Assembly: GCA_009840305.1 (NCBI GenBank)
Contig: VXNY01000024.1
Span: 248,001 to 312,000, forward strand
Length of the DNA: 64,000 bases
Source of the DNA: Gammaproteobacteria bacterium
GTDB taxonomy: Bacteria > Pseudomonadota > Gammaproteobacteria > Pseudomonadales > Azotimanducaceae
Direction: 5' to 3'
In this document: positions 1 through 13,283 of the stretch, in pieces
How positions within the stretch are numbered: position 1 is the stretch's first letter
Layout of the letters: every line of letters starts with the position of its first letter
Program-made: the position numbers and the translations under genes
The notes under the pieces: model-generated
Databases searched by the model: none
Seen by the model: the letters and a program-made list of their open reading frames with translations, nothing else
Told to the model about the DNA's origin: nothing

Positions 1-684
1 GGACTTTCGTTACATCGAGAAGTGATTACACTCTCCCAGGAATCGGAAGTGTCAGAGGTTCAACCAAACATGGAACCTGCCGACTTTGAAGAAGCCAGCT
101 CTTGGAAACCAATTCAAGAAATAGGAATTATTGTTGATGACCTGGACACAGGATTTTCAGTGGAGCAAAAGTCAGTACGTACAGTTCGTCCTCCTCGTGC
201 AGGTCCGATTGCGTGGTTTAGGATTCCTCGACTCGACGGCGAACTAGATCGAGGCATTCCAGTTAGTGGTCAACATTACTTGTTTGAATACCACGTACCA
301 GATGGTGAATGGAGTAGAACCACCGAAGACTACGCATACGGAAAATTTCGAAGGACCGCTGTTTTTAATTACGTTCGACAGGTGAGTCAAAGAGCGACTT
401 TTACTGCGGAAATCCCTGATTCCGCGGTTTGGAAGTTAGACTACCACCTTCCTTATTCACACGACAGCGATCGGCACAGGGGTCTTAAATACCAATTGGA
501 AATTACCGATCGGACTGGTTCGCAGGACGTGGAATTCGACGTTTACAACTTGGAAGTAGGATGGAACTCTGTGGGAGATTTCAATCTAGATGCAGGAGAG
601 GTCAAAGTTCATTTAGTAGGCATTTCACAACGAGGACCGCTCTGGGCGGACGCAATACGATGGTCTAAGGTTGATAAGGATTAA
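1..684 (+). CDS. C-terminal end of a large envelope protein with golvesin/Xly-like domain (5' truncated by window)
   Basis: The reading frame is open from the first base, so the start lies outside the window; a GTG at 22 is probably only an internal codon. From about nt 130 the protein has the hallmarks of a golvesin/Xly-type beta-sandwich: a VDDLD-x-GF opening, a KFRRTAVF core, a W-x-L-x-Y-HLP strand, VGWNSVGDF and a closing WADAIRW. The same series ends the two full-length proteins at 701-4246 and 5186-8710, so this is very likely the tail of a third paralogue with an ABC-2-type membrane region and an M1-like domain upstream. That upstream part is inferred, not seen. Golvesin-like domains are thought to bind carbohydrate or polymer; the ligand here is unknown. 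The gene converges on the next one with only 16 nt between stops. Confidence 0.75.
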   Translation, partial: GLSLHREVITLSQESEVSEVQPNMEPADFEEASSWKPIQEIGIIVDDLDTGFSVEQKSVRTVRPPRAGPIAWFRIPRLDGELDRGIPVSGQHYLFEYHVPDGEWSRTTEDYAYGKFRRTAVFNYVRQVSQRATFTAEIPDSAVWKLDYHLPYSHDSDRHRGLKYQLEITDRTGSQDVEFDVYNLEVGWNSVGDFNLDAGEVKVHLVGISQRGPLWADAIRWSKVDKD

Positions 685-700
685 TAGCGTCTTTTAACTG

Positions 701-3700
701 TCAGTCGAGAGGGACCCATCGAATCGCATCCGCATAAATAGTCTTTTTATCAGACGACCCCGAAATCCAAACTTCGGTCTGCGTCGACTCGACATCAAAT
801 GTACCAAGTGCATGCCATCCATGCTTGGCATCCTGTGCGTTGAATTGAATAGTTTCTTCTCGTTCTCCTATCACTACTTTGATCCGCGTCATACCGGCTG
901 GATAGAGTTTGTGCCAATCAGTTGGTAGCTCTTCCCTCATCAAAATTCGCGTTTCCTGATCATTAGGTGCAAGTTCTTCAACTGGTAGGTGATATTCGAG
1001 CTGCCATCGACCCGTTTTTGGTAAGTTAGCCCGATACTTTGCATAAGATGGTTTGTTCTCGCGACCGTCGTGAATTAAAGCGTAAGTACGTCGGTATTTT
1101 CCGTGAGCTCGTTGATCCGAACGTCGTACCCACCGCTGTTTAGGTGGCGGTTCGCCGTCTTCAAAAACGTAAGCAGGCATGCCATCGTCCAACGCTAAGA
1201 CTTCTGACGTACCAAATAAATCTTGAAAAAATGAAAATACTGGTAGCGAAGTCAACGGTGGACTTTCGTAGACAATCTCAAATTCTTCGTCGGAGTCGTC
1301 GACTACAACCGCCTGACTAATGGGTGGCGACCACTCAGTTTTGACAACGTAAGGTTGCTGCGTTTCCGAAATTTCGTTCTCATAAATAATCGGTGGAATG
1401 ACGATCCGTATTGCGTCCCTATTTAACGATAAGTACGGTTCAACATACATAACTTCGACGGGAAAATGCACGATGCTCTTAATAGACAATTTCACCGATT
1501 CGTTACCACGAATTAAAAATGCTTTGAACCAGCCTCGAGAAACATCACGACGAGTACCGTGACCTTCAGGGTTTATGTTCGTATAAGACACGTCTACAAA
1601 ACCGTCATGAGGTTCGGCATTGTGCACGAATACAGTAGCTTCATATCGTTTCTCACCTGACTCGTTATTCGGTAGTCTCCTACTCGTAGGTTCGGCTACG
1701 ATAAAGCCGGGCAACCCCTTCACATTGAGCCAATCTCCAAGAGTGGCTTCTAAATCAAGATCGAGTTTCTTCGCTTCACGAATCAAATCATCGTAGCTGT
1801 ACGACGATCCTCTCATCGACGATACTAGTTGTCCAAGTAGCTCTGCGGTTTGGTCTCTTCCAAGTATTTCCAAGATGATTCGACTCAAAGTCGTGGCCTT
1901 AGTAGACATGACTCTAAAACTCCTAAGAGGTGCTTGCTGGGTTGTGAGATCGCCGAGTGAAAACCGCTTTAGATCGTTCCAGACTACAGATTGCGTGCGA
2001 TATCGAAGTAACGCGCGCTCTTCGCGGCTCCTCTGTGACTCACTTTTTCCCACATCGAATAGATCGAACACACTTCTCTTCGCATGTGCTAAGGCCAATT
2101 CAAAGACAAAAAAACGACCCGGTCCGCTACCGATGTGATCTCCGTAAAAGATACTTCGATTAAATACTAAGCGCTGAACCAATTCCTCCAGAACATGATC
2201 GAGTACCGTTGCACCAGACTCCGAGGTTGAAGTTTGGTATTTAACAAAGTTTCTTGCGAAACCTATCGTGGGATGCTCTCCAAAAACATTGCTGTTGAAA
2301 TACGCGGATAACTCTGATCCGGGGTAAGACACCAGTAGTCGATATTCTTCAGAAAAACCTTCGCCGCCAAAATTTTTTTCATACCAATCTTCGGGGTTAG
2401 TGGGCACTCTGGTATTTGGTAAGGACGACTCTCGCATTAAAACCATGCCTGGAGGCCCCAAAACTGTGTCCATCTTCCACCCTCCGCCGTAGACCCTTAT
2501 AGAGTTCGGGACTTCCACGAGAGAAAACACCTCATAGGGATACACAACGCCAACCTCTTTATGTGTGTGGAGCCAACTCAAAATCCGGGTCTTCAAGTTC
2601 TTCTCGATTACACTCAGGTCATGAAATGTGCGACGGTGATGCTTAGTGAACAGTATTTCGAACTCGATGTCTTCGACTGTGATGCTGGCGCGCTCAAAGT
2701 CACTACTTACTAAGGTAATTTCTGGTACCGGATTCCTAGGAGCAATTTGATAAATAGACTGGTGTGAATCTTTTGAATCTAGGGACACTCGATGACCGCC
2801 CCCAGCTACCAACCAATTCTCAGGAACTGATACTGTGATGTCTACGTAGAACAAATCACGCGGTCTTACCTCCAATTTGTCCTCACCCGTAGCGGCACCT
2901 GAAGTGGGATACCACTTTATTCCCGAAGTTAGCACCACAAAATCTCGATGAAATATGTAATTTTCGGTCCCTAGGGCGAACAGGTTCCGGACTTTCGCTC
3001 CCGCAATATCTTTCGATTTCACCGCCGCGTCTAAGTAAGCAAAGCGCGCATCGGGACGACCATGCGCATTCACTCTGACTTCAACTGAGTTGTCGTCGCT
3101 TGCGGGTAACGGAACTTGTAGGATTCCTTTCTCGAAACTAGGATCTGGCACTTCATCTCCTCCAACCCATAGCTGAAGATTACGATATCCTGGATTTAAT
3201 GACAACACGACATAGTCATGCACGTTGTTCTCTGGTGGGATCAAGTCCATCTTGATGTCTAACTCAACCCTACGACTTGGGAGAATTTCCACAGTTCCTC
3301 TCAAGTGGGTTATGTCAGGGAATGTGCTGAGATCTTGCGAGTCATGGGTACGAGCCCAATCTTGAACTTCCATTCGACTCAGATGTTGAAATCCTATCGC
3401 TCCACCTATTAAGAGACTGCCGAGTACGAGTGCGCTGACACCGCCAATTGCATAGTGTCGCCGGTGCATTAACGGACGTCGTAAACAACATCCCGCCAGC
3501 ACTAAAAAACTCCCAGTGAATAGCGTGAAGGTAAACCTATTTAACAAGATTTCACCCGATACGAAGCGAGGCGCGATTTCCGATGGAAAGAGTGAAGCAC
3601 CTGTGCTGGTGACTAGGGCACCGGCGTAATCGAGAGGTAATCGAAGAAACAACCAAAATACGATGACTACACCCCCAAGTGCCAGCACAATGACGGTTAT

Positions 3701-4246
3701 CCTCGATCGTATGATCGTTGATAGAAATATCGTTAACGCGCCGAAGAACGCTAGATTCGGTACGAGATCCCAGATTAAGAACGAAGCCACGCTGTGCAAC
3801 TCGATGAGATTTCCGTAGCCGAGGTTGTTCAGTTCGGCGATCCAACCGTATAGTGCGACCATAGTAATAAACACTACCATGGGTACAGCAATGAGCATTA
3901 CTAATCCCAGTAGCCGTGCTAACAACACAACGACATTTGAGGCTGGAACGACATCCAATACTTCGTCGATCTTGTTCCGAACATCTCTCCCACGCAGGTC
4001 GTACGCAAGCAAGATCATTGCGATGCAATAGAGCGCTAAGAAGTAGGGTCCAAGTGTTGCAGCTAAGTAGGTTGGAGCCATCATCCCCACACTAGCAGAT
4101 TCCGCCGCTCGCATGATGTATTGCAGTTCAACCAATACGTAAAAGGAGGCACTAACTACGAACGCCATGAACAGAATCGCCTTTGTGCGTTGCAGTTTGA
4201 GAGACTGCTTTACTTCAGTCAGCGCGAATACAAAAAACATATTCAT
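701..4246 (-). CDS. ABC-2-type membrane protein fused to a degenerate M1-peptidase-like domain and golvesin-like domain
   Basis: This 1181-residue protein starts with about seven hydrophobic segments (residues 24-287) laid out like an ABC-2 permease. A large soluble region of the aminopeptidase M1 type follows (about 290-850), then beta-rich linkers and a golvesin-like domain (about 980-1181: VVVDDSDEEF, KYRRTYAL, GRWQLEYHLP, ADAIRW). ABC permease/M1 fusions of about 1150-1200 residues are a known architecture. Here the position of the HEXXH zinc motif reads LEELVQRLVF (near residue 687) and the glutamate helix is not recognisable. The exopeptidase GAMEN-like position is GGGWKMDTVLG (near 589). 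I infer a catalytically dead domain kept for binding or structure. No ABC ATPase gene is in the window. The paralogue at 5186-8710 shares the whole layout. Confidence 0.8.
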   Translation of the reverse strand: MNMFFVFALTEVKQSLKLQRTKAILFMAFVVSASFYVLVELQYIMRAAESASVGMMAPTYLAATLGPYFLALYCIAMILLAYDLRGRDVRNKIDEVLDVVPASNVVVLLARLLGLVMLIAVPMVVFITMVALYGWIAELNNLGYGNLIELHSVASFLIWDLVPNLAFFGALTIFLSTIIRSRITVIVLALGGVVIVFWLFLRLPLDYAGALVTSTGASLFPSEIAPRFVSGEILLNRFTFTLFTGSFLVLAGCCLRRPLMHRRHYAIGGVSALVLGSLLIGGAIGFQHLSRMEVQDWARTHDSQDLSTFPDITHLRGTVEILPSRRVELDIKMDLIPPENNVHDYVVLSLNPGYRNLQLWVGGDEVPDPSFEKGILQVPLPASDDNSVEVRVNAHGRPDARFAYLDAAVKSKDIAGAKVRNLFALGTENYIFHRDFVVLTSGIKWYPTSGAATGEDKLEVRPRDLFYVDITVSVPENWLVAGGGHRVSLDSKDSHQSIYQIAPRNPVPEITLVSSDFERASITVEDIEFEILFTKHHRRTFHDLSVIEKNLKTRILSWLHTHKEVGVVYPYEVFSLVEVPNSIRVYGGGWKMDTVLGPPGMVLMRESSLPNTRVPTNPEDWYEKNFGGEGFSEEYRLLVSYPGSELSAYFNSNVFGEHPTIGFARNFVKYQTSTSESGATVLDHVLEELVQRLVFNRSIFYGDHIGSGPGRFFVFELALAHAKRSVFDLFDVGKSESQRSREERALLRYRTQSVVWNDLKRFSLGDLTTQQAPLRSFRVMSTKATTLSRIILEILGRDQTAELLGQLVSSMRGSSYSYDDLIREAKKLDLDLEATLGDWLNVKGLPGFIVAEPTSRRLPNNESGEKRYEATVFVHNAEPHDGFVDVSYTNINPEGHGTRRDVSRGWFKAFLIRGNESVKLSIKSIVHFPVEVMYVEPYLSLNRDAIRIVIPPIIYENEISETQQPYVVKTEWSPPISQAVVVDDSDEEFEIVYESPPLTSLPVFSFFQDLFGTSEVLALDDGMPAYVFEDGEPPPKQRWVRRSDQRAHGKYRRTYALIHDGRENKPSYAKYRANLPKTGRWQLEYHLPVEELAPNDQETRILMREELPTDWHKLYPAGMTRIKVVIGEREETIQFNAQDAKHGWHALGTFDVESTQTEVWISGSSDKKTIYADAIRWVPLD

Positions 4247-4405
4247 TTAGATGCCTATTACGGCTGAACGGTCAGAATTCTCTCTTCTTAGTCGGGAATC
4301 TACATGTCTGACTGCACAGGCTCCCTAACTACTTTGGTTTCCGTGCCTCACTGAATTTGGATTCATCGTTGAAAGTGAAGATTCCTGCTAGGGTTTCTTC
4401 ATCTG

Positions 4406-5005
4406 TCATAAAGTCTCACTATCTTCAACTGAAAAAGGTGCGTGCTCTTCGGCTAGTTGGGCGGTTAATTTACTGACCAATCGGCGAGTACGCTGAAAAG
4501 CCCAATATAACAAGCAAACACTCAGTAAGAGCCAAATTATGAAAGCCATCCAACCCATGAAGGGAATCTGAATTTCTCCGCTGAAGTGTGCGATGAGTGC
4601 TACCGGGAAGACGACTACAAACAAGAAACCAGGCCCAGATGCTAACCAATAAAAAATTTGGTAATTTCTCTTTTCCTTGTTTGATAGGAGCTCTAGCGAT
4701 TCGCTTGCTTCTTTGCTGAAGAAGGAATCAACACCCTTGCGTCGTACTTTAATAGAAAGGTAGGAGAGAGGCAAAATGGATGCACAGGTTACTAGGAACA
4801 GGCGCCAATTCCAAAAATCAGTTAGAATGCCATTCACCGCAAACATTACACCCATAATTACTGCCAAAGCGGTGATTACGACTGTAAATGTTGGTACATA
4901 TTTGAGGAATAGCTTGAAAATATTGTCATTTATAGAGTTCATGGCTAACCATGCGCGACCTTCTTCTTCTGACCTTGACTTCATAAACTTCTTAACTAAA
5001 TCCAA
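4406..5005 (-). CDS. Hypothetical four-helix membrane protein
   Basis: I do not recognise a named family. The 199-residue product has two hydrophobic helices (about residues 36-60 and 68-86), a polar stretch rich in Ser, Glu and Lys, then two more helices (about 117-143 and 150-170) and a charged C-terminus with an RTRR cluster. It reads in the same direction as the permease/M1-like gene that begins 160 nt downstream, so the two could be co-transcribed and act in the same membrane assembly; that is inference. A second Met at residue 8 (4984) is an alternative start. The region just upstream holds an inverted repeat at 5013-5046. Confidence 0.6.
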   Translation of the reverse strand: MDLVKKFMKSRSEEEGRAWLAMNSINDNIFKLFLKYVPTFTVVITALAVIMGVMFAVNGILTDFWNWRLFLVTCASILPLSYLSIKVRRKGVDSFFSKEASESLELLSNKEKRNYQIFYWLASGPGFLFVVVFPVALIAHFSGEIQIPFMGWMAFIIWLLLSVCLLYWAFQRTRRLVSKLTAQLAEEHAPFSVEDSETL

Positions 5006-5012
5006 TGTTGTT

Positions 5013-5046
5013 TGTGGTAGGAGAATAGTATATCAGTCCTACAACA
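5013..5046. repeat. Imperfect inverted repeat upstream of the 199-aa membrane gene
   Basis: TGTGGTAGGA (5013-5022) and TCCTACAACA (5037-5046) are inverted copies with one mismatch and a 14-nt spacer. They lie 8-41 bp upstream of the minus-strand start at 5005 and before the plus-strand gene at 5186. The position suits an operator for a divergent pair, but there is no direct evidence for a binding protein. Confidence 0.3.
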
Positions 5047-5185
5047 TTCGTCCACACTCTCAATCTCGATGACGCAATAGAGCTGACCCTTCAGCGATGC
5101 GGGAAACCGTTCCTCACAGAAGCGTAAACTAAAATTCCGTAGTTCTTGTATTCCACAGCGTCGCCTAGCAGCCAACTACTCACTC

Positions 5186-8100
5186 ATGACTGAAAAGTTC
5201 TTCTATTCGCTACGAATTTTCCTAAATCTGTTACGACTCGATCTAAAGCACCTACTTCAACGAATTACGAACCCCATCGTAATTGTGACGCTACTGATAA
5301 TTCTCGTCTCCTTCGCTCTCACGCTCGGTACGTTTCACTATCTAACGTCCGTTTATGCACCGTTGCATGGCGTCTCCAATCCCAAATTTAGTTTAGGTGG
5401 ATACGAACCTTTATTGTTTTATCTTTGTATCGTTGTCGTTCTGATCTTCGCTTTTCGCTTACCGAGCTATCGTGAAGAAACGATCAAAAACGTCGTCATT
5501 AGCTATCGCGAGCCGAGCAACTTTTTATTGACTCTGTCGCGAGTGCTAACACCAACACTACTTGTGTTTGGAAGCGTGGCTGCAACAGCATTTGCCTACC
5601 AAGTTATTTCGAGCTTAGATGTCGCAAACCAGCCCGGTATCGTAGAGCCGTTCGAATTTCAATCTCTCATCTTCGTTCTAGTCGAACTACTTTTAGCAAT
5701 GCTATTCTGGACTAGCTTGGCGGTCCTGATCACTCAAGTCGTCAAAAGCGCTCTGAAAGGATTCCTCAGTACTCTTGTGATCCTAATTCTGCAGGCATGG
5801 ATTAGCCCTGTACTACCCGGCGAGTTGGGTTCGTTTACGTTCGGGTACGGTGCTGCGAACTTGTACGTTTCGGAAATTGCACCCGCCTACTGGGAAGCGA
5901 ATCACGTCTTCTACTGTCTGTCGATAGTTGGTCTCGCTTTTGCGTTCATCGTTGCAACCTCATGGTTTCACGAACGCACAGACCCCGCGAAACAAAGTGT
6001 TTACAAACCAATGATCGTGATTCTCACGTCGTTGGGTATAGCAAGTCAAGGCGTGGTTCAGACATCAAATTTGATGGGATACAGTCGGCATCAAACATGG
6101 AACAAAGAGCAGGAATTTTTTGCTGATGGATTCATTCAACGAGCATCAATCCACGCGATTGAAGGTGAGGTATTAATCAAACCAGGTTCGAAACTGAATA
6201 TGAATCTCAACTACAAGTTCGTGCTCGATTACACCGATACTGAGGACGCTTCGCAACTTGGATCTCCAGAAATTTGGTTTGCTCTCAACCCAGGAATGAA
6301 GGTTCAGAGTGTTCACTGTTCGAACTCTAAACTGAACTTCTCACATGAAAACGGAACCCTCCTAATCGACTTGTTTTCCTGTGATCCATACGACAACCAA
6401 GAGTACTCTATTGATATTGTTGCGAGCGGACAACCTGATCCGCGCTACCTTGTCAAACACATTCCGCGCGCGGGTCGTTCCGATGTGGATCCACAATTAG
6501 TACGGCTAATGGGTCAGAAGTCGAGTATCTTTACGTCGGATTACGTAGCATTAACTCCTTCGAGTCATTGGTACCCTCAGCTGTTGTCCGGATCCATTTG
6601 TAGTGATGACTCGGCGACAACACATGCTACGGATGTTTCACTCAAAATCGATCTAGTTCCGAAGTCATGGACGTTGGTCGCCTCAGGAGGAGAGCTTCTA
6701 CAAGCACCAAGTGCTCAAGATGGTAGTCGTTTACTCAGTGGAAGCTTCAAGACGGTGGGATTAATTGCGGCCGACTTTCGCGTCTCCACTCACTCTAATG
6801 AATCCGTAGACGTAAACGTAGTCGTACACAAACGACACGCGAAGAGACTGGAAGGGAATCAGCTCCTCATGGATGCTCTCGTCGGATACGTTAGCGACGC
6901 AATAACCAAATTGGAATCCTACGACATCGACTATCCATTCGATCAGTTTACGATCGTCGAAGTCCCCGCGACTCTCTCTCTACTTAACCACGAAAACAAC
7001 GTGAATCTGGGTATGGAGTCGATCGCTATGTTCAGAGAATCTGGTATTCCGTTCGCTCGGCTCTTCCGCTTGCACGACTGGCAAGAAGATTATGAACAAG
7101 CCGAGGCCGATGAATCGCCGATGGCAGGGTTCCTTAAGAGTCAAGTCGATTTCATGAAGTCTTTGTATTGGACCAATCCAATTTTCAACCACACCTACGA
7201 AGATGCTATCGTCGAAAGTTTAGTGTCTGGTCGGATCAATCGTACTGACGAACACTCGAACTTAGCCGAGTTGGTTTTAGAGACGCTGCTTTTCAACCTT
7301 CTAGAGAGCAAAAATTACCGATTTGACTTTGATCTCGCCAATTCTCTCGCTCTAGAGTCACGACTAAACATTCGCTACATTTGGATTCATCGGCATGGCT
7401 CGTTCAGGCTTGACCTACTGGGCTTCCAAGATGCTTTTACAAATTCCAATAGATTCTGGGAGTCGATCGAGCGATCATTCGTAAGCCAAGGGGAAAACGC
7501 AGATCAGGACAGCTTGCTGCATGTACCAAATAGACTTCGCCTGCAACGATTCCGTGTTTTGAAGCTATCCGAAATACTTGCCGATCTGTACGAAGAGCAA
7601 ACCATAGCAACCACGCTGACTGACATTTTGAGCAAGGGTGAAGCCACTCCCATTGATCTGGATCTTATTGCTCGTATTGCCGCATCGAATGACATGGAAA
7701 TTGCCTCGTTAATTCAGAATACACTACTGAATGACAAGCTCACAGGTATTAATTTCTCAGTCGCTCATCAGACTGAGTTTGAAGAGCCCAATGAGAACGG
7801 AGAGCGTTTCCACACAGTGTTAAATCTCCGAAATAACGAGGATACGGTAGGTTATGTCTCGTTCCAAGTTGTGGAAACTCGGGAACTTGTTCAAGGAGAT
7901 CAGACTCTTCGAACAGTGGCTAATGACTTTAAACTCGGACCTTTTGAACTTCAAAAACATAGTTCGTATCAACTGGAATTGAACACCGCCAATTTCATAG
8001 GAAATTTAGACGCGAACACTTTTCTATCACGAAACAGAGGTCAAGTAGTACTTGCTGTAGAAAACACCAAATCGACGGAAGAACTCAGTACGCTCAGCGA

Positions 8101-8710
8101 TGGGACAAATGAATGGTTTTCCTTCGTTGATTCTCCATGGAACTCGACGCCGAATCAAAACGAAATCATCGTCGACGACCTAGATCATGGATTTGAAATA
8201 CCTGCTAGTAATTTTCGCGAGGCATCCAATTTTTGGACCTTAGGATCTAGCCTATTTCGTCATTACTTTCCTGTACCAAGCGGTATGGACAATGGTCTAC
8301 CGATCATTCAAAATCCCATTGGTCCTTGGACGCGAAACAGTGGCCGTGGTAGTTGGGGTCAGTATCGACGCACGTATGCCCTCGCAGATACGAGCAAGCC
8401 CGGTGTCCACAAAGTTGCTTTTAATGCATACTTACCCAAAGAAGGTCGTTGGTCATTGTCATATTTCCATCCTGATGTCTTCTTGTTCTTGGAGATGGTG
8501 GGAGTTTCACTCGACGAATACGATCTTGAAGTCACTACGAACCAACAGGATTGGAATCTAAGAATTTCCGCTAACGAATTGACCGTCGGTTGGAATGAAA
8601 TTTCGACCATTGACGTGGATTCACCTGGAGAGATTAAGGTCGCGGTGAGCAACGAGTCCGATGGAACGTATGTGTACGCCGATGCGATTAAGTGGACATA
8701 TTTAGACTAA
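5186..8710 (+). CDS. ABC-2-type membrane protein fused to a degenerate M1-peptidase-like domain and golvesin-like domain (paralogue)
   Basis: This 1174-residue paralogue of the 701-4246 product lies on the opposite strand. The first 275 residues carry the ABC-2-like set of membrane helices. A long M1-like periplasmic or extracytoplasmic part follows, and a golvesin-like domain begins near residue 993 (IIVDDLDHGFEI, QYRRTYAL, GRWSLSYFHP, VGWNEISTI, YADAIKW). The segment matching GAMEN is LGMESIAMF (near 608). The segment where HEXXH should lie (near 671) reads VESLVSGRIN and has no histidine, so zinc-dependent peptidase activity is unlikely. The shared shape indicates duplication followed by strong divergence. 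Being divergent from the 199-residue gene, it probably has its own promoter in 5006-5185. Confidence 0.8.
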   Translation: MTEKFFYSLRIFLNLLRLDLKHLLQRITNPIVIVTLLIILVSFALTLGTFHYLTSVYAPLHGVSNPKFSLGGYEPLLFYLCIVVVLIFAFRLPSYREETIKNVVISYREPSNFLLTLSRVLTPTLLVFGSVAATAFAYQVISSLDVANQPGIVEPFEFQSLIFVLVELLLAMLFWTSLAVLITQVVKSALKGFLSTLVILILQAWISPVLPGELGSFTFGYGAANLYVSEIAPAYWEANHVFYCLSIVGLAFAFIVATSWFHERTDPAKQSVYKPMIVILTSLGIASQGVVQTSNLMGYSRHQTWNKEQEFFADGFIQRASIHAIEGEVLIKPGSKLNMNLNYKFVLDYTDTEDASQLGSPEIWFALNPGMKVQSVHCSNSKLNFSHENGTLLIDLFSCDPYDNQEYSIDIVASGQPDPRYLVKHIPRAGRSDVDPQLVRLMGQKSSIFTSDYVALTPSSHWYPQLLSGSICSDDSATTHATDVSLKIDLVPKSWTLVASGGELLQAPSAQDGSRLLSGSFKTVGLIAADFRVSTHSNESVDVNVVVHKRHAKRLEGNQLLMDALVGYVSDAITKLESYDIDYPFDQFTIVEVPATLSLLNHENNVNLGMESIAMFRESGIPFARLFRLHDWQEDYEQAEADESPMAGFLKSQVDFMKSLYWTNPIFNHTYEDAIVESLVSGRINRTDEHSNLAELVLETLLFNLLESKNYRFDFDLANSLALESRLNIRYIWIHRHGSFRLDLLGFQDAFTNSNRFWESIERSFVSQGENADQDSLLHVPNRLRLQRFRVLKLSEILADLYEEQTIATTLTDILSKGEATPIDLDLIARIAASNDMEIASLIQNTLLNDKLTGINFSVAHQTEFEEPNENGERFHTVLNLRNNEDTVGYVSFQVVETRELVQGDQTLRTVANDFKLGPFELQKHSSYQLELNTANFIGNLDANTFLSRNRGQVVLAVENTKSTEELSTLSDGTNEWFSFVDSPWNSTPNQNEIIVDDLDHGFEIPASNFREASNFWTLGSSLFRHYFPVPSGMDNGLPIIQNPIGPWTRNSGRGSWGQYRRTYALADTSKPGVHKVAFNAYLPKEGRWSLSYFHPDVFLFLEMVGVSLDEYDLEVTTNQQDWNLRISANELTVGWNEISTIDVDSPGEIKVAVSNESDGTYVYADAIKWTYLD

Positions 8711-8835: not shown

Positions 8836-10815
8836 TCAGAATCCGAAGACGTTGGTCCAGAGATTTTTCGACTCTAGCTCCTTTTTTTCCCGATCGGTCA
8901 GGTAGCCACTTAGTTCTTCCAATTGTTCATCGGAGAGTGTACTGTAAACATTGTGGTATGCTGTTAACCACATGGCGGCACGAGATCTGGCCGAAGAGGT
9001 TGAAAGCTGATCAATGTACTCGAACGCCTTTTTCGGTTCTCGGGTAGCCCAAACGGCGACCAACATACCCTCATACTCTGTTCTTTGCCCCTCTGGTATT
9101 TGTTTGCCAAAGTCGAACGCTGATTGCCGATCATCTTCAGTAAATAGTAATTTGGTACCTATCGCTACCTGCACAATCAATTGAGATCTACCCTCGCGAA
9201 CTCGAGAAAGCATCGTTTTGGCCAACTCTAAGTCTTTAACACTCAATTGCGATAGTAACATGCCCTCATATCCAATACCCGCTTCGTTTGGAGAGTGTTT
9301 CAACGCCAGTTCGATCAGAGACTCTACATTTTCAGCGGTTACAAAGGACCGCATTTGAGAGACTAGATTAGTTCGATAATCCTCTACTTCTGACTCGGTC
9401 AACAACCACTCAAATGCTACGTGGATATCTTGCTGCGCCCACTTCCAAACTATGTCAGTTGCCAGATTGCGCTTTGCGCGCGGGTTTGGTAAATCAGACA
9501 AGTAGTCAATCGCTTCTAGAGGAGCTTCATGAGCCAACATACCCACAGCTCGTTCCTTAGCTAATGCCTGCAGATTGCTCGGTAAAGTGTCTAGTCGTTG
9601 AAGTACGTTACGCGGATTTCTCCCTGCCCACACCCAAAGAGCTTCTGCAAGTATTTGATCTCGCTTATCGGATTGCGAAAGCTCGGAGATGACTTTTAGT
9701 GCTACTTCTGCATCGGAACGAGCCCACGTTAACAGAATTTCACCGCGAACGTGTTCACGTAGTGCGTCATCCGATATTTGTCTCAGCGCGCTTAATGCGG
9801 CATTGGGGTCATTACGAGCCCAATTCTCGGCGATTTCAAAGACGGTGGCTCGGTTAGTCCCATCCTGCAATTTCACTGCGTAGTCAAAAGCGCTTGCGAT
9901 ATCTTGCTGCGCGAGGTTGTCTATTAAAACTGTTCGAAAGACCTCGTTTCTGGTTCTTCGATCTTCAAGAGATTTGTGCATCTCAATTAAAACCTCAATC
10001 CCTCCTCTTTCGACTGCTGCAAGCACGACATCTACGAGTTCCTCAGTTTGGCTAAAGTCGTCCTCGGCATCAGCTAGGATGCTGCTCCATGCTTCTAACG
10101 GTTCGTCAAACAAGTTCGCACCCATTGATCGCTCCAGCAGAGTGAGTTCGTCGTACGTGAGTTCAAAATCGCTAACAACTATCTGCTTGATGCTTTCTGA
10201 GAGGCTAGGATTTGATTCCAAAATCCCGGTGAGTACCGCGATTTTTTGCGTCGATTCCAGCCGTCCAATATATCCTCGTCCAAATGCGATTGCTGCATTG
10301 ATGTCAGACAATGACCATTCTGAAAATATCACAGACGTGAACTTGTTGCGCAGAATCAGAGGAAAATCGTTGGCATAGGTCAGTGCTCGTTGTGGATCAA
10401 TGGACGCTAACTTACGAAATATCTGGTCTTGAACAATGTCTCTAACAACCAATTTTTCGACCATCTTAGACTCGCTAAGCAAATCCACCGTGTCCTCAAA
10501 CGTTGCGGTAGCGAGCAACCCGTCAATCGCGACAGCAAGTGCAAAACTCGATGTGATATTCTCTAATCCATCCAATCCTGAAAGAAATTCGCTAGAAGAG
10601 GAGGGATCGCCGGTTTCAGCGACTTCCTCTAGTGATTGATCTGCTGGCTCTTCAATCTGCTCATCATCGGGTTGATATTCTGTAGTCGTGCTTCGATTTT
10701 TTTCGCCGGTGAAATTGACTAGGATGGTGGAGCAGAGCACAGCTGAAAAGAGCACTCCTAAAACAAACGGGACCTTCCGAAACCACGATTCTTTGTTATC
10801 TTTTGCAGTAGTCAT
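8836..10815 (-). CDS. Membrane-anchored helical-repeat (WAxxDPxxAL) protein, copy 1
   Basis: The ATG at 10815 is preferred over the GTG five codons upstream. The product (about 659 residues) has a short basic N-terminus, one membrane helix (PFVLGVLFSAVLCSTILVNF), an acidic linker and then a long alpha-helical solenoid. The solenoid repeats every 30-40 residues around W-A-x-x-D/N-P-x-x-A-L, for example AENWARNDPNAAL, LLTWARSDAEVAL, VWKWAQQDIHVAF and VAVWATREPKKAF. Such repeats resemble TPR/HEAT-type scaffolds. The topology suggests an inner-membrane anchor with the solenoid in the periplasm. No enzymatic motif is visible. A paralogue follows upstream in tandem. A possible C-terminal second membrane helix is encoded out of frame after the stop (8711-8835). 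Function unknown. Confidence 0.65.
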   Translation of the reverse strand: MTTAKDNKESWFRKVPFVLGVLFSAVLCSTILVNFTGEKNRSTTTEYQPDDEQIEEPADQSLEEVAETGDPSSSSEFLSGLDGLENITSSFALAVAIDGLLATATFEDTVDLLSESKMVEKLVVRDIVQDQIFRKLASIDPQRALTYANDFPLILRNKFTSVIFSEWSLSDINAAIAFGRGYIGRLESTQKIAVLTGILESNPSLSESIKQIVVSDFELTYDELTLLERSMGANLFDEPLEAWSSILADAEDDFSQTEELVDVVLAAVERGGIEVLIEMHKSLEDRRTRNEVFRTVLIDNLAQQDIASAFDYAVKLQDGTNRATVFEIAENWARNDPNAALSALRQISDDALREHVRGEILLTWARSDAEVALKVISELSQSDKRDQILAEALWVWAGRNPRNVLQRLDTLPSNLQALAKERAVGMLAHEAPLEAIDYLSDLPNPRAKRNLATDIVWKWAQQDIHVAFEWLLTESEVEDYRTNLVSQMRSFVTAENVESLIELALKHSPNEAGIGYEGMLLSQLSVKDLELAKTMLSRVREGRSQLIVQVAIGTKLLFTEDDRQSAFDFGKQIPEGQRTEYEGMLVAVWATREPKKAFEYIDQLSTSSARSRAAMWLTAYHNVYSTLSDEQLEELSGYLTDREKKELESKNLWTNVFGF

Positions 10816-10909
10816 CGGCTCGATGAACACTGTGAGTGAATCAAACGACTATTCATCTTTCGGGCGATAAAACAGTAATTGAAGTCTACTCATGTCCCAA
10901 AATACCTGG

Positions 10910-12709
10910 CTACCACCTACGATACTGTAAAAGACTCTTTGAGTGTTTATCGCTGAGATAGCTTTTTATGATTGCAATTTGGTCGTCAGAAAAGAGTTTG
11001 TAAGATTTAGTTGTATATCCTTGTAACAACACAAGCGCCGCACGGGACTTGATCTCGGCAGTCGGGAAAAGATCTAGCGATTCGAATAACCCATACTTAT
11101 CCTCATTCTGCCATTGGTTGAATAGATGCACGAAATAGTCGTCGTGCTGTGCCGGAGGAAGCTGCAGAACGAGTTCGATTGCTCGCTCCGGTTCGTTTCG
11201 TTTTAACAGTTCGTGTCCAGCTTCCGCAAACGAAGGGACCTTTGCAACATCTCGTACGCGGAGCAACATCGCAATGGCTTGATCGATGTCAATACGAGCA
11301 AGATGGCGAATTACTTGAGGTTCAAAAGCTACTTTGTTTCTGCTAACGGGTTGATTTATCGCCGTCTCTAGAGCAAGTTCCGGATCTTCTCGGACTAGAG
11401 AGGGCCAGATTGACCACAAGTAATCATGCCTCCTGTTTCGGTTCTTAGATAACACCCATTCAAGTGCCGAGTGTACATCTTTCTCCGCCCAAGGACCTAT
11501 GATGGAATCGCCAACTTCATACGAGCTTAATGAATTACCCAGTAATCGTATCGCTTCCAAAGGTTCCTCGGTCGCAAGACCCCTGAGTGCTTGTGATCGT
11601 GCCAACGAACGCACCGTTGACGGGAATGTTTTAAGGCTATCAAAAAGTTCGCGCGGGTTTTCTCTTGCCCAATGGTAAGCTATTTGTTGCTGAAATTGCG
11701 TTCGCTCTTCAGCGGAGTCGATTGCGGATAGTGCTTCCAATGCAGCCTTTGGATCGGTGCTGGTCCACGTTTGTAAAACACTTGCGGTAACATCAGACAT
11801 GGCATTCGAAGTCAATTGATGAGCCGCCTCGAACGCACTGTCTGGGTCACTACGAGCCCATTGTGAAAATACCGGGACAAGCACGCTTTGAGGGAAGCTC
11901 AAGTGCGCTAGGGAGTTTTCAATTTGCTCGATTACGGTGGATCCGTCTTGCATTAACCAAGTTTCAAGAATGGTCGCGAGAACGAGAACCTGATTTTCGT
12001 CATTGCGCCCATCCCCAAGGATTGCATTCCAAGCTGATTCAGGATCCTTCAAAGCCTGAGCTAAGATACTTTGTTCCTGAACATCCACGGTGACCGTGTC
12101 GAGATCTAATTCACTCGCTAGTTCATTGACCCGACTGTCGGGCAACCCCCGTCTAACACTCAGTATTGCTGCGAAAGCAAGTCGGTGATCGGACTGCTCT
12201 AAAGTTCTCAAATGTGAGATTGCAGATTCGATATCCGTTGTCGCCAATTCATGGAATACCGCAGTAACCAATATTTTTCTGTCGTTCCATGAGAATTTGC
12301 TTATCTGGGTTATTGCTTCAGAGGGATTGAGGGAAGCGTATCGTCGCAAAATTTCACTTTGAGTTGTACTTCGCAGATACTCGTTTGAAATGTTCTTGGA
12401 TTGTTCGAGTAGGGCAAGTAATGCTGTTTCGTCGCTAGATGCCAACATCGCCCTGAGTGCAACTGATCGAGCATAGTTACTCTCTGTTTCGGGGAGCTCT
12501 GAAATGTCGATCTCGACACTATCAGAGAACTCACTCAAATATATTTCTTCGTCAAAATTCGTTGAAATATTGGTTTCATCTGCAACAGGAGTTAATGAAC
12601 TTGAGTGTACAAGAAATTTGTATGCTAGAAATCCTGCTCCAAACAGCAGTACAGTTATTAAGACTCCTAGCACAAACGACGAGATCGTGTTTGTTTTTGA
12701 GCTAGCCAT
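10910..12709 (-). CDS. Membrane-anchored helical-repeat (WAxxDPxxAL) protein, copy 2
   Basis: This is a tandem paralogue of the 8836-10815 product. A longer frame reaches a TTG at 12841, but the ATG at 12709 puts the N-terminus (MASSKTNTISSFVLGVLITV) in register with copy 1 and leaves the next gene free, so I chose it; no strong ribosome binding site is visible. One membrane helix is followed by an acidic linker and about 15 helical repeats with the W-A-x-x-D-P-x-x-A pattern (FSQWARSDPDSAF, LQTWTSTDPKAAL, AYHWARENPRELF, IGPWAEKDVHSAL). It ends in QYRRW with no second membrane helix. Together with copy 1 and the small membrane gene upstream it may form one operon. Function unknown. Confidence 0.65.
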   Translation of the reverse strand: MASSKTNTISSFVLGVLITVLLFGAGFLAYKFLVHSSSLTPVADETNISTNFDEEIYLSEFSDSVEIDISELPETESNYARSVALRAMLASSDETALLALLEQSKNISNEYLRSTTQSEILRRYASLNPSEAITQISKFSWNDRKILVTAVFHELATTDIESAISHLRTLEQSDHRLAFAAILSVRRGLPDSRVNELASELDLDTVTVDVQEQSILAQALKDPESAWNAILGDGRNDENQVLVLATILETWLMQDGSTVIEQIENSLAHLSFPQSVLVPVFSQWARSDPDSAFEAAHQLTSNAMSDVTASVLQTWTSTDPKAALEALSAIDSAEERTQFQQQIAYHWARENPRELFDSLKTFPSTVRSLARSQALRGLATEEPLEAIRLLGNSLSSYEVGDSIIGPWAEKDVHSALEWVLSKNRNRRHDYLWSIWPSLVREDPELALETAINQPVSRNKVAFEPQVIRHLARIDIDQAIAMLLRVRDVAKVPSFAEAGHELLKRNEPERAIELVLQLPPAQHDDYFVHLFNQWQNEDKYGLFESLDLFPTAEIKSRAALVLLQGYTTKSYKLFSDDQIAIIKSYLSDKHSKSLLQYRRW

Positions 12710-12791
12710 GACGTTTCGAGCTATGTAATTCGTCGCCCGCCGCGCAATTGACTTAGTGAGCTGGTGGTTCTTAAGTATGGCAACATTACGG

Positions 12792-13283
12792 TCATCTTGC
12801 ATCGTTTTGCCTGCGACGTGCAGTTGTGTAGCACAAAACAAAACTAATCATGACAACTATAGTGGCAAATACCAAGGTACCCCAGCGCATCGAAGAACCT
12901 GAAATTAAGAGAGCAAAAAAGTCTCTTGAGATTACCATGAATCCCCCGACAGGAGCGAAAAATATGGAAGCCAGAAACGGATTTAGGCGAAAAAGGTAAT
13001 CTACTTTGAGATCCCGAGCGTTGCTAGCTCCACGATAACGTCGAAACAATACATGGAGACCGCGAAACAAAACGTAGAACACAATGAAATACAACGGTGT
13101 TGCAAGCAAACTACCACAAGAAAGTCCCCAATTGATCGGACGTGAATTGAGGATTGGGAAGAGAAACAACTCAGCGCAGATGCCTGCGACACCGAGAAAC
13201 ATCGCAGTGAGTGTAGCACTAACCAACGGACGTTCAATCCAGAAGCGTTCGATTCGACCAAATTCTTGCAAGGTATCACTCAT
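12792..13283 (-). CDS. Small Yip1-like multi-pass membrane protein
   Basis: The 163-residue protein has four to five hydrophobic helices, starting near residues 19-42 (PLVSATLTAMFLGVAGIC) and ending in a helix followed by TARRRQNDAR. The layout (short N-terminal soluble part, paired helices, an F-R-L-N-P segment before the last helices) recalls bacterial Yip1/YIPF-like proteins, but I see no decisive motif. It lies 82 nt upstream of the second repeat protein on the same strand, so it is probably the first gene of that three-gene set. Confidence 0.5.
   Translation of the reverse strand: MSDTLQEFGRIERFWIERPLVSATLTAMFLGVAGICAELFLFPILNSRPINWGLSCGSLLATPLYFIVFYVLFRGLHVLFRRYRGASNARDLKVDYLFRLNPFLASIFFAPVGGFMVISRDFFALLISGSSMRWGTLVFATIVVMISFVLCYTTARRRQNDAR

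Follow-up and report, generated by a model that had tools for sequence, protein, structure and literature searches.

What does a bacterium do with giant membrane proteins whose peptidase-like domain seems to have lost its zinc site? The question is raised by the first genes of the 64,000-nucleotide window analysed here (C27:248001-312000), which belongs to a genome of 2,621,006 bases in 35 contigs. Copy A is complete with 1181 amino acids (aa; positions 701..4246, minus strand), copy B is complete with 1174 aa (5186..8710, plus strand), and of copy C the last 227 residues with the end domain lie in the window (1..684, plus strand), in agreement with an earlier note, made from the sequence alone, that described two complete proteins of about 1180 residues and the end of a third. 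By sequence comparison, A, B and C are paralogues within a genus-wide expansion of a giant ATP-binding cassette (ABC) permease of the ABC-2 type with a zinc-less M1-peptidase-like middle and a sugar-module-like end. It is tentatively proposed, with somewhat less than an even chance of being right, that these permeases are exchangeable binding heads of a hybrid envelope exporter of ABC and resistance-nodulation-division (RND) parts, most of them sharing one ATPase. The proposal is based on the folds, the zinc loss, the operon of relatives, the copy numbers, the single close ATPase, a conserved loop and purifying selection; from these we infer that the ATPase is shared and that the parts form a physical complex, and also in which direction the system transports and what it carries.

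The three proteins are homologous along their length, with 22-25% identity and pairwise BLASTP E values of 2e-46, 1e-98 and 1e-47, a likeness that on these alignments is far beyond chance. Motifs noted earlier (VDD-x-D, YRRT and the ADAIRW or ADAIKW ends) are present in the A, B and C sequences. Extension upstream of the window recovered the start of copy C: its frame begins at L003:2224 and meets an in-frame stop past residue 93, and a second open frame runs from a GTG at L003:2521 to L003:5685 (the 1054-aa part). The orthologue of copy C in genome G013 also has an in-frame stop, at a position different from that in copy C, and uninterrupted orthologues exist in sister genomes. Orthologues of A, B and C in sister genomes are 76-94% identical. 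The ratio of nonsynonymous to synonymous substitution rates (dN/dS) lies at 0.16-0.27 in the 6 orthologue pairs of A, at 0.18-0.19 in the 3 of B and at 0.17-0.23 in the 15 of C; over all 24 pairs, the range of 0.16-0.27 points to purifying selection. Copy B is the most divergent of the three and has a long tree branch. A recent tandem duplication as the origin of A, B and C was rejected, as they fall in three different subclades and share only 22-25% identity.

The structure of copy A was modelled with pLDDT of 85.2 and pTM of 0.84. Its residues 1-290 (3377..4246, minus strand) represent a predicted ABC-2-like membrane part. ABC-2 proteins have an N-terminal helix, six or so long helices, and a short coupling helix between the second and third, and the modelled secondary structure fits this plan. 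Pfam scores are weak: ABC2_membrane_2 in copy A reaches 7.6 bits, below cut-off, copy B has no ABC-2 match, and the best ABC2_membrane score in five relatives scanned is 26.2 against a cut-off of 27.2. Together with the model and a profile match to the second ABC-2 half of Pfam-positive ABC-2/M1 fusions, they favour the ABC-2-like N-terminus proposed earlier. Residues 300-950 (1397..3349, minus strand) adopt in the model an M1-peptidase-like fold without HEXXH, comparable to the two-domain enzyme 6koy and aminopeptidase N. When the whole model was compared with the PDB, the 50 matches listed were all M1 chains, and the best match in a viral fold library was a Tupanvirus M1-like aminopeptidase (E 7.7e-14), which is the M1 signal again. 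At the sequence level, profiles matched PDB entries only weakly, with aminopeptidase N at E 0.044 and xanthan lyase at E 0.28. Pfam Peptidase_M1 does not recognise the domain, and at the thresholds used no NCBIfam model matches A, B, C or their ATPase-linked relative L116.

The end domain of copy A (residues 976-1181; 704..1321, minus strand) is of golvesin/xanthan-lyase type, with the modelled fold of the C-terminal module of xanthan lyase (6f2p). Golvesin_C scores 35 bits in copy C (cut-off 31.6) and 21.7 bits, below cut-off, in copy A; in copy B, which it does not match, the domain (8138..8707, plus strand) was placed by alignment to A. Fold comparison supports the M1-like middle that had been read from the letters and, together with Pfam scores, the golvesin/Xly-type end: on the model of copy A, the middle is an M1 fold and the end a sugar-module-like domain. 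Copy A shows no intact zinc site elsewhere in the chain, and neither its middle nor its end is predicted to take a different fold.

Loss of HEXXH had also been claimed, and it holds for all copies in the genome: HE..H is absent from the 26 own copies (open frames of at least 300 aa, with the 93-residue N-terminal piece of copy C included). The replacement that had been named for copy A is off. The segment LEELVQRLVF (A residues 687-696) aligns to the helix of the third zinc ligand, which follows HEXXH in the true fusions, and profile alignment with three HELAH fusions puts the lost HEXXH at about residues 645-672 of copy A (2231..2314, minus strand), a placement that is approximate as the alignment is gappy there. 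Among 118 family frames in the loci also used for the operon counts below (fragments and overlapping loci included), four have HE..H anywhere, and the 92-row alignment has four occurrences in three rows, at A residues 301-304 and 774, all of them off the catalytic helix.

The groove had another fate. Its motif VEVP..R..GGG...D.....PG....RE...P, found by conservation at residues 577-610 of copy A (2417..2518, minus strand), retains E578, P580, E606 and P610 in 92 of 92 rows; in a 50-row alignment with most of the own copies, P580 and E606 never vary and E578 hardly does. As these residues are conserved and the zinc motif is lost, the M1-like groove seems to be kept for binding. It is very improbable that the M1 domain is still a peptidase working through a rearranged metal or catalytic centre: the kept fold and the invariant E578 and E606 would suit such an enzyme, but no HEXXH stands at the site in the 92 aligned members, nor does one occur in the 26 own copies, among which the former zinc region (0.31) is less conserved than any other of ten segments.

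The earlier note took A, B and C for a family of three; the kinship is real, the number far too low. Searched with a profile, the own genome yields 30 match rows, which correspond to 26 genes in 27 open frames (copy C occupies two). The genes amount to 90,969 bases, or 3.47% of the genome, and six of them stand in one array at C27:170745-193090. In a tree of 67 sequences, the root of which is arbitrary, the 26 own copies and 8 ATPase-linked copies of sister genomes are grouped together (hereafter the expanded group), apart from 33 members from loci L095-L127. Within their group, A, B and C belong to different subclades, and B has a long branch. The family was found in 23 of the 58 genomes searched, the own genome included: in 18/18 of the genus, 5/19 other genomes of the family, and 0/21 others of the order. 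A class-wide sample of 273 other genomes had none at E 1e-30, and matches among the listed loci come also from metagenome-assembled genomes (MAGs) of Acidobacteriota, Bacteroides, Deltaproteobacteria, and Thermoanaerobaculales.

Counted as match rows per genome, which are not exact gene numbers, the genus is uneven: the own genome has 30, eight relatives have 14, 14, 20, 21, 26, 29, 30, and 32, a further eight have 2-4 each, and one has 6. The high-copy relatives are SB0677_bin_6, COS3_bin_7, CO36404bin_7, SB0661_bin_9, SB0661_bin_12, SB0666_bin_18, Plut_88873, and COS2_bin_1; we take the SB and COS series to be marine-sponge MAGs, and a link of the high-copy genomes to sponges is likely. Published support for the link is indirect: an excerpt of PMC8163846 deals with sponge MAGs, with Coscinoderma matthewsi among the hosts, and an excerpt of PMC12203066 mentions Nitrospira 'SB0677' used in a sponge study, a paper that contains neither 'COS' nor 'Coscinoderma'. 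The spread of 2 to 32 match rows in the genus would also agree with amplification that is mostly turnover, in which copies are gained and lost and few but the ATPase-linked one have much function, as would the stops that interrupt copy C, its orthologue in G013 and a few sister-genome copies. This explanation is nevertheless improbable, considering the low dN/dS of A, B and C, the persistence of their orthologues in sister genomes, and the 25 of 26 own genes that are uninterrupted.

Outside the expanded group, the family gene often stands in an operon with the order ABC ATPase (305-357 aa where uncut), giant permease, membrane fusion protein (356-482 aa), RND protein (1013-1068 aa), RND protein with C-terminal ABC ATPase (RND-ATPase; 1578-1633 aa), and small ABC-2-like permease (mostly 231-333 aa). 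The loci compared, the 80 best among 258 hits of a single peptide pattern, do not amount to a census. Among the 33 full-length members from L095-L127, the ATPase lies directly upstream in 16 of the 27 with enough flank; downstream, the fusion protein was found in 22/31, RND in 21/27, RND-ATPase in 18/24, and the small permease in 17/33. ACR_tran and ABC_tran of Pfam occur on one chain in both the own genome (5.9e-151 and 2.9e-28) and L116 (1.7e-146 and 2.1e-29), and the ABC-2 score of the small permease is above cut-off in the own genome and just below it in L116. In the own genome, the first four operon parts are at C27:188474-197817, behind five further permease copies, with HlyD-type and ACR_tran genes behind the ATPase-linked copy. 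The own RND-ATPase of 1605 aa is outside the window at C27:555088-559902 (L128:9089-13903, minus strand) and is followed by the small ABC-2 permease. This fusion occurs exactly once in each of the 18 genus genomes (E 1e-200), with 78-86% identity to those of the five nearest genomes. The export context suspected earlier is supported by this operon of relatives; the RND parts were missing from that account, as their genes lay outside what its reader saw. No account of the permease family or of an RND-ABC ATPase fusion appears in the listed titles and abstract beginnings of open-licence PMC papers, a scope that does not exclude its existence.

The cognate ATPase (C27:188474-189472 in the own genome) is likewise present exactly once in 18/18 genus genomes (E 1e-80). 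Its best NCBIfam models are DrrA in the own genome (191 bits) and GldA in L116 (193 bits). A second cognate ATPase for the orphan copies, such as A, B and C, was looked for and rejected: the next best match (36% identity) is the ATPase part of the RND fusion. Of ten segments compared in the 26 own copies, the presumed cytoplasmic ATPase-facing loop (A residues 80-118; 3893..4009, minus strand) is conserved best, with a mean majority share of 0.56 as compared with 0.31-0.49, and it also ranks first outside the expanded group (0.71). For the loop, dN/dS is 0.047 in copy A and 0.093 in copy C. By eye, the loop is kept in most orphans, with B and C24:70042 departing most, so that most orphans probably still use an ATPase. 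The single cognate ATPase would be the simplest candidate for their partner.

According to the proposed scheme, the genus kept a single cognate ATPase and a single RND-ATPase fusion as the permease was amplified, to 26 genes in the own genome. On the outer side of the inner membrane, different peptides or glycoconjugates would be bound by the dead M1 groove together with the end domain; most of these heads would dock through the conserved loop on one shared ATPase, which would drive the ABC-2 part; and the membrane fusion protein and the RND parts would take over the cargo and export it across the envelope.

Several observations speak against such sharing. The earlier note had advised a look for a nearby ABC ATPase; none lies beside A, B or C, and the cognate one stands next to another copy, about 60 kb upstream. 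With 35 ABC ATPase matches in the own genome (E 1e-5), another ATPase could serve the orphans, and in B and C24:70042 the conserved loop is largely gone, so an ATP drive cannot be taken for granted in every copy; both points weigh against a shared motor. In the expanded group (61 members, L057-L094; overlapping loci may count a gene twice), the ATPase was found in 8/55, the fusion protein in 15/57, RND in 5/47, and RND-ATPase in 0/35, and the own RND-ATPase is about 360 kb from the first operon parts. Between the cognate ATPase and its counterparts in the five nearest genomes, identity is 93-96%; ATPases evolve slowly in general, and for this reason the identity lends the scheme only weak support. 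Copy C and some sister-genome copies carry in-frame stops, and the expression, binding, direction, and cargo supposed in the scheme are hypothetical.

The missing neighbour, the many other ATPases and the operon parts split in this genome would all be expected if the orphans were independent transporters served by other ABC ATPases, with neither a shared motor nor a hybrid complex. This is unlikely: in the neighbourhoods examined, ABC-signature genes besides the cognate one stand at only two C34 copies and are of other types by their sequence starts, the closest ATPase to the cognate one is the RND-fused one, and the loop is conserved across most copies. A little less unlikely is that the permeases are ATP-driven sensors or levers rather than carriers, the arm of which handles envelope or host polymers or gates the RND pump. 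The large extracytoplasmic arm, well folded in the model, with its sugar-module-like end and lost catalytic site, is consistent with a lever, as is the operon link to RND pumps, and MacB-type mechanotransmission, as far as excerpts of the literature describe it, is a precedent. Against it, the membrane part matches ABC-2 exporters and not proteins of the MacB/FtsX type.

It is possible, though doubtful, that the exchangeable heads belong to a new class of trans-envelope machine, in which ABC-2 (ATP) and RND (proton) pumps, including a two-motor chain, are combined and about 26 heads on one ATPase handle many envelope or host molecules in some probably sponge-associated bacteria. The family matters for a peptidase fold that has lost its zinc motif and yet persists as a transporter arm in all its members, for an operon that links ABC and RND pumps down to one fused chain, and for a small genome in which about 26 permeases face one close ATPase. 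Were the ATPase shared, this would be a large natural combinatorial exporter, and both the use of one ABC motor with many membrane partners and the coupling of ATP- and proton-driven export would become testable.

Other genes near the copies were recorded as well. Next to copy B, at 8836-12841 (minus strand), adjoining proteins of 664 and 643 aa are mutual paralogues (phmmer E 3.8e-55) with weak Pfam matches below cut-off. At 12792-13283 (minus strand) is a 163-aa probable membrane protein without Pfam match, a paralogue of which is at C28:18696-19202, also near a permease-family copy. Some orphan copies adjoin envelope-type genes at C28:19372-32125, C26:5867-9703, C24:114968-116974, and C33:24812-26911 (L046, L053, L056, and L049): thioredoxin/AhpC-like, FG-GAP with DsbD_N, FG-GAP with ASPIC/UnbV and a haloperoxidase-like protein, and a TonB receptor. 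Such thiol-redox, FG-GAP, and TonB-receptor neighbours hint loosely at work in the envelope. Defence-type genes are found shortly before the window, at L002:4360-16383 (C27:232360-244383): they encode a 1626-aa type IIG restriction-modification protein, a 335-aa TIR-like protein and a 1351-aa protein with a weak PD-Lambda-4_A match, and are accompanied by a transposase-like fragment (L002:9556-9996). An anti-phage role of the permeases was considered and set aside, as PADLOC models have no match to A, B or the 1054-aa part of C.

Among known systems, the nearest kind is the ABC-2/M1 aminopeptidase fusion, three of which were found in genomes of the same family (L158:6840-10424, L159:5021-8581, and L160), each with HELAH and an adjoining ABC ATPase gene. 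In L158, Pfam finds ABC-2 in two places and Peptidase_M1, with no Golvesin_C match. The likeness is that of ABC-2 helices followed by M1 (profile probability 98.8, E 5e-17), with family columns 14-931 aligned to fusion columns 307-1179, that is, to the second ABC-2 half and M1. The giant permease family differs from the fusions in all these tested features: it has a single ABC-2 half, lacks the zinc motif, and carries an extra domain at its end. The M1 zinc metallopeptidases such as 6koy and aminopeptidase N share the fold of the middle, whereas copy A is without HEXXH and anchored in the membrane by its ABC-2 part. The end module is carried by a lyase in xanthan lyase and by a permease here, where sugar binding is putative. 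DrrA/GldA-type ATPases are the best NCBIfam likeness of the cognate ATPase, yet its scores are far below their curated cut-offs of 312 and 403 bits. VarABCDEF of Vibrio cholerae is likewise an ABC-type tripartite exporter encoded in a gene cluster, but according to an excerpt of PMC5595328, its permeases VarD and VarE are MacB-like and the system has no RND chain, so identity with it was rejected. With tripartite RND efflux systems, finally, the operon shares the membrane fusion protein and RND genes; unlike in those systems, one of its RND chains bears an ABC ATPase, and two ABC-2 permeases and a second ATPase are encoded beside it.

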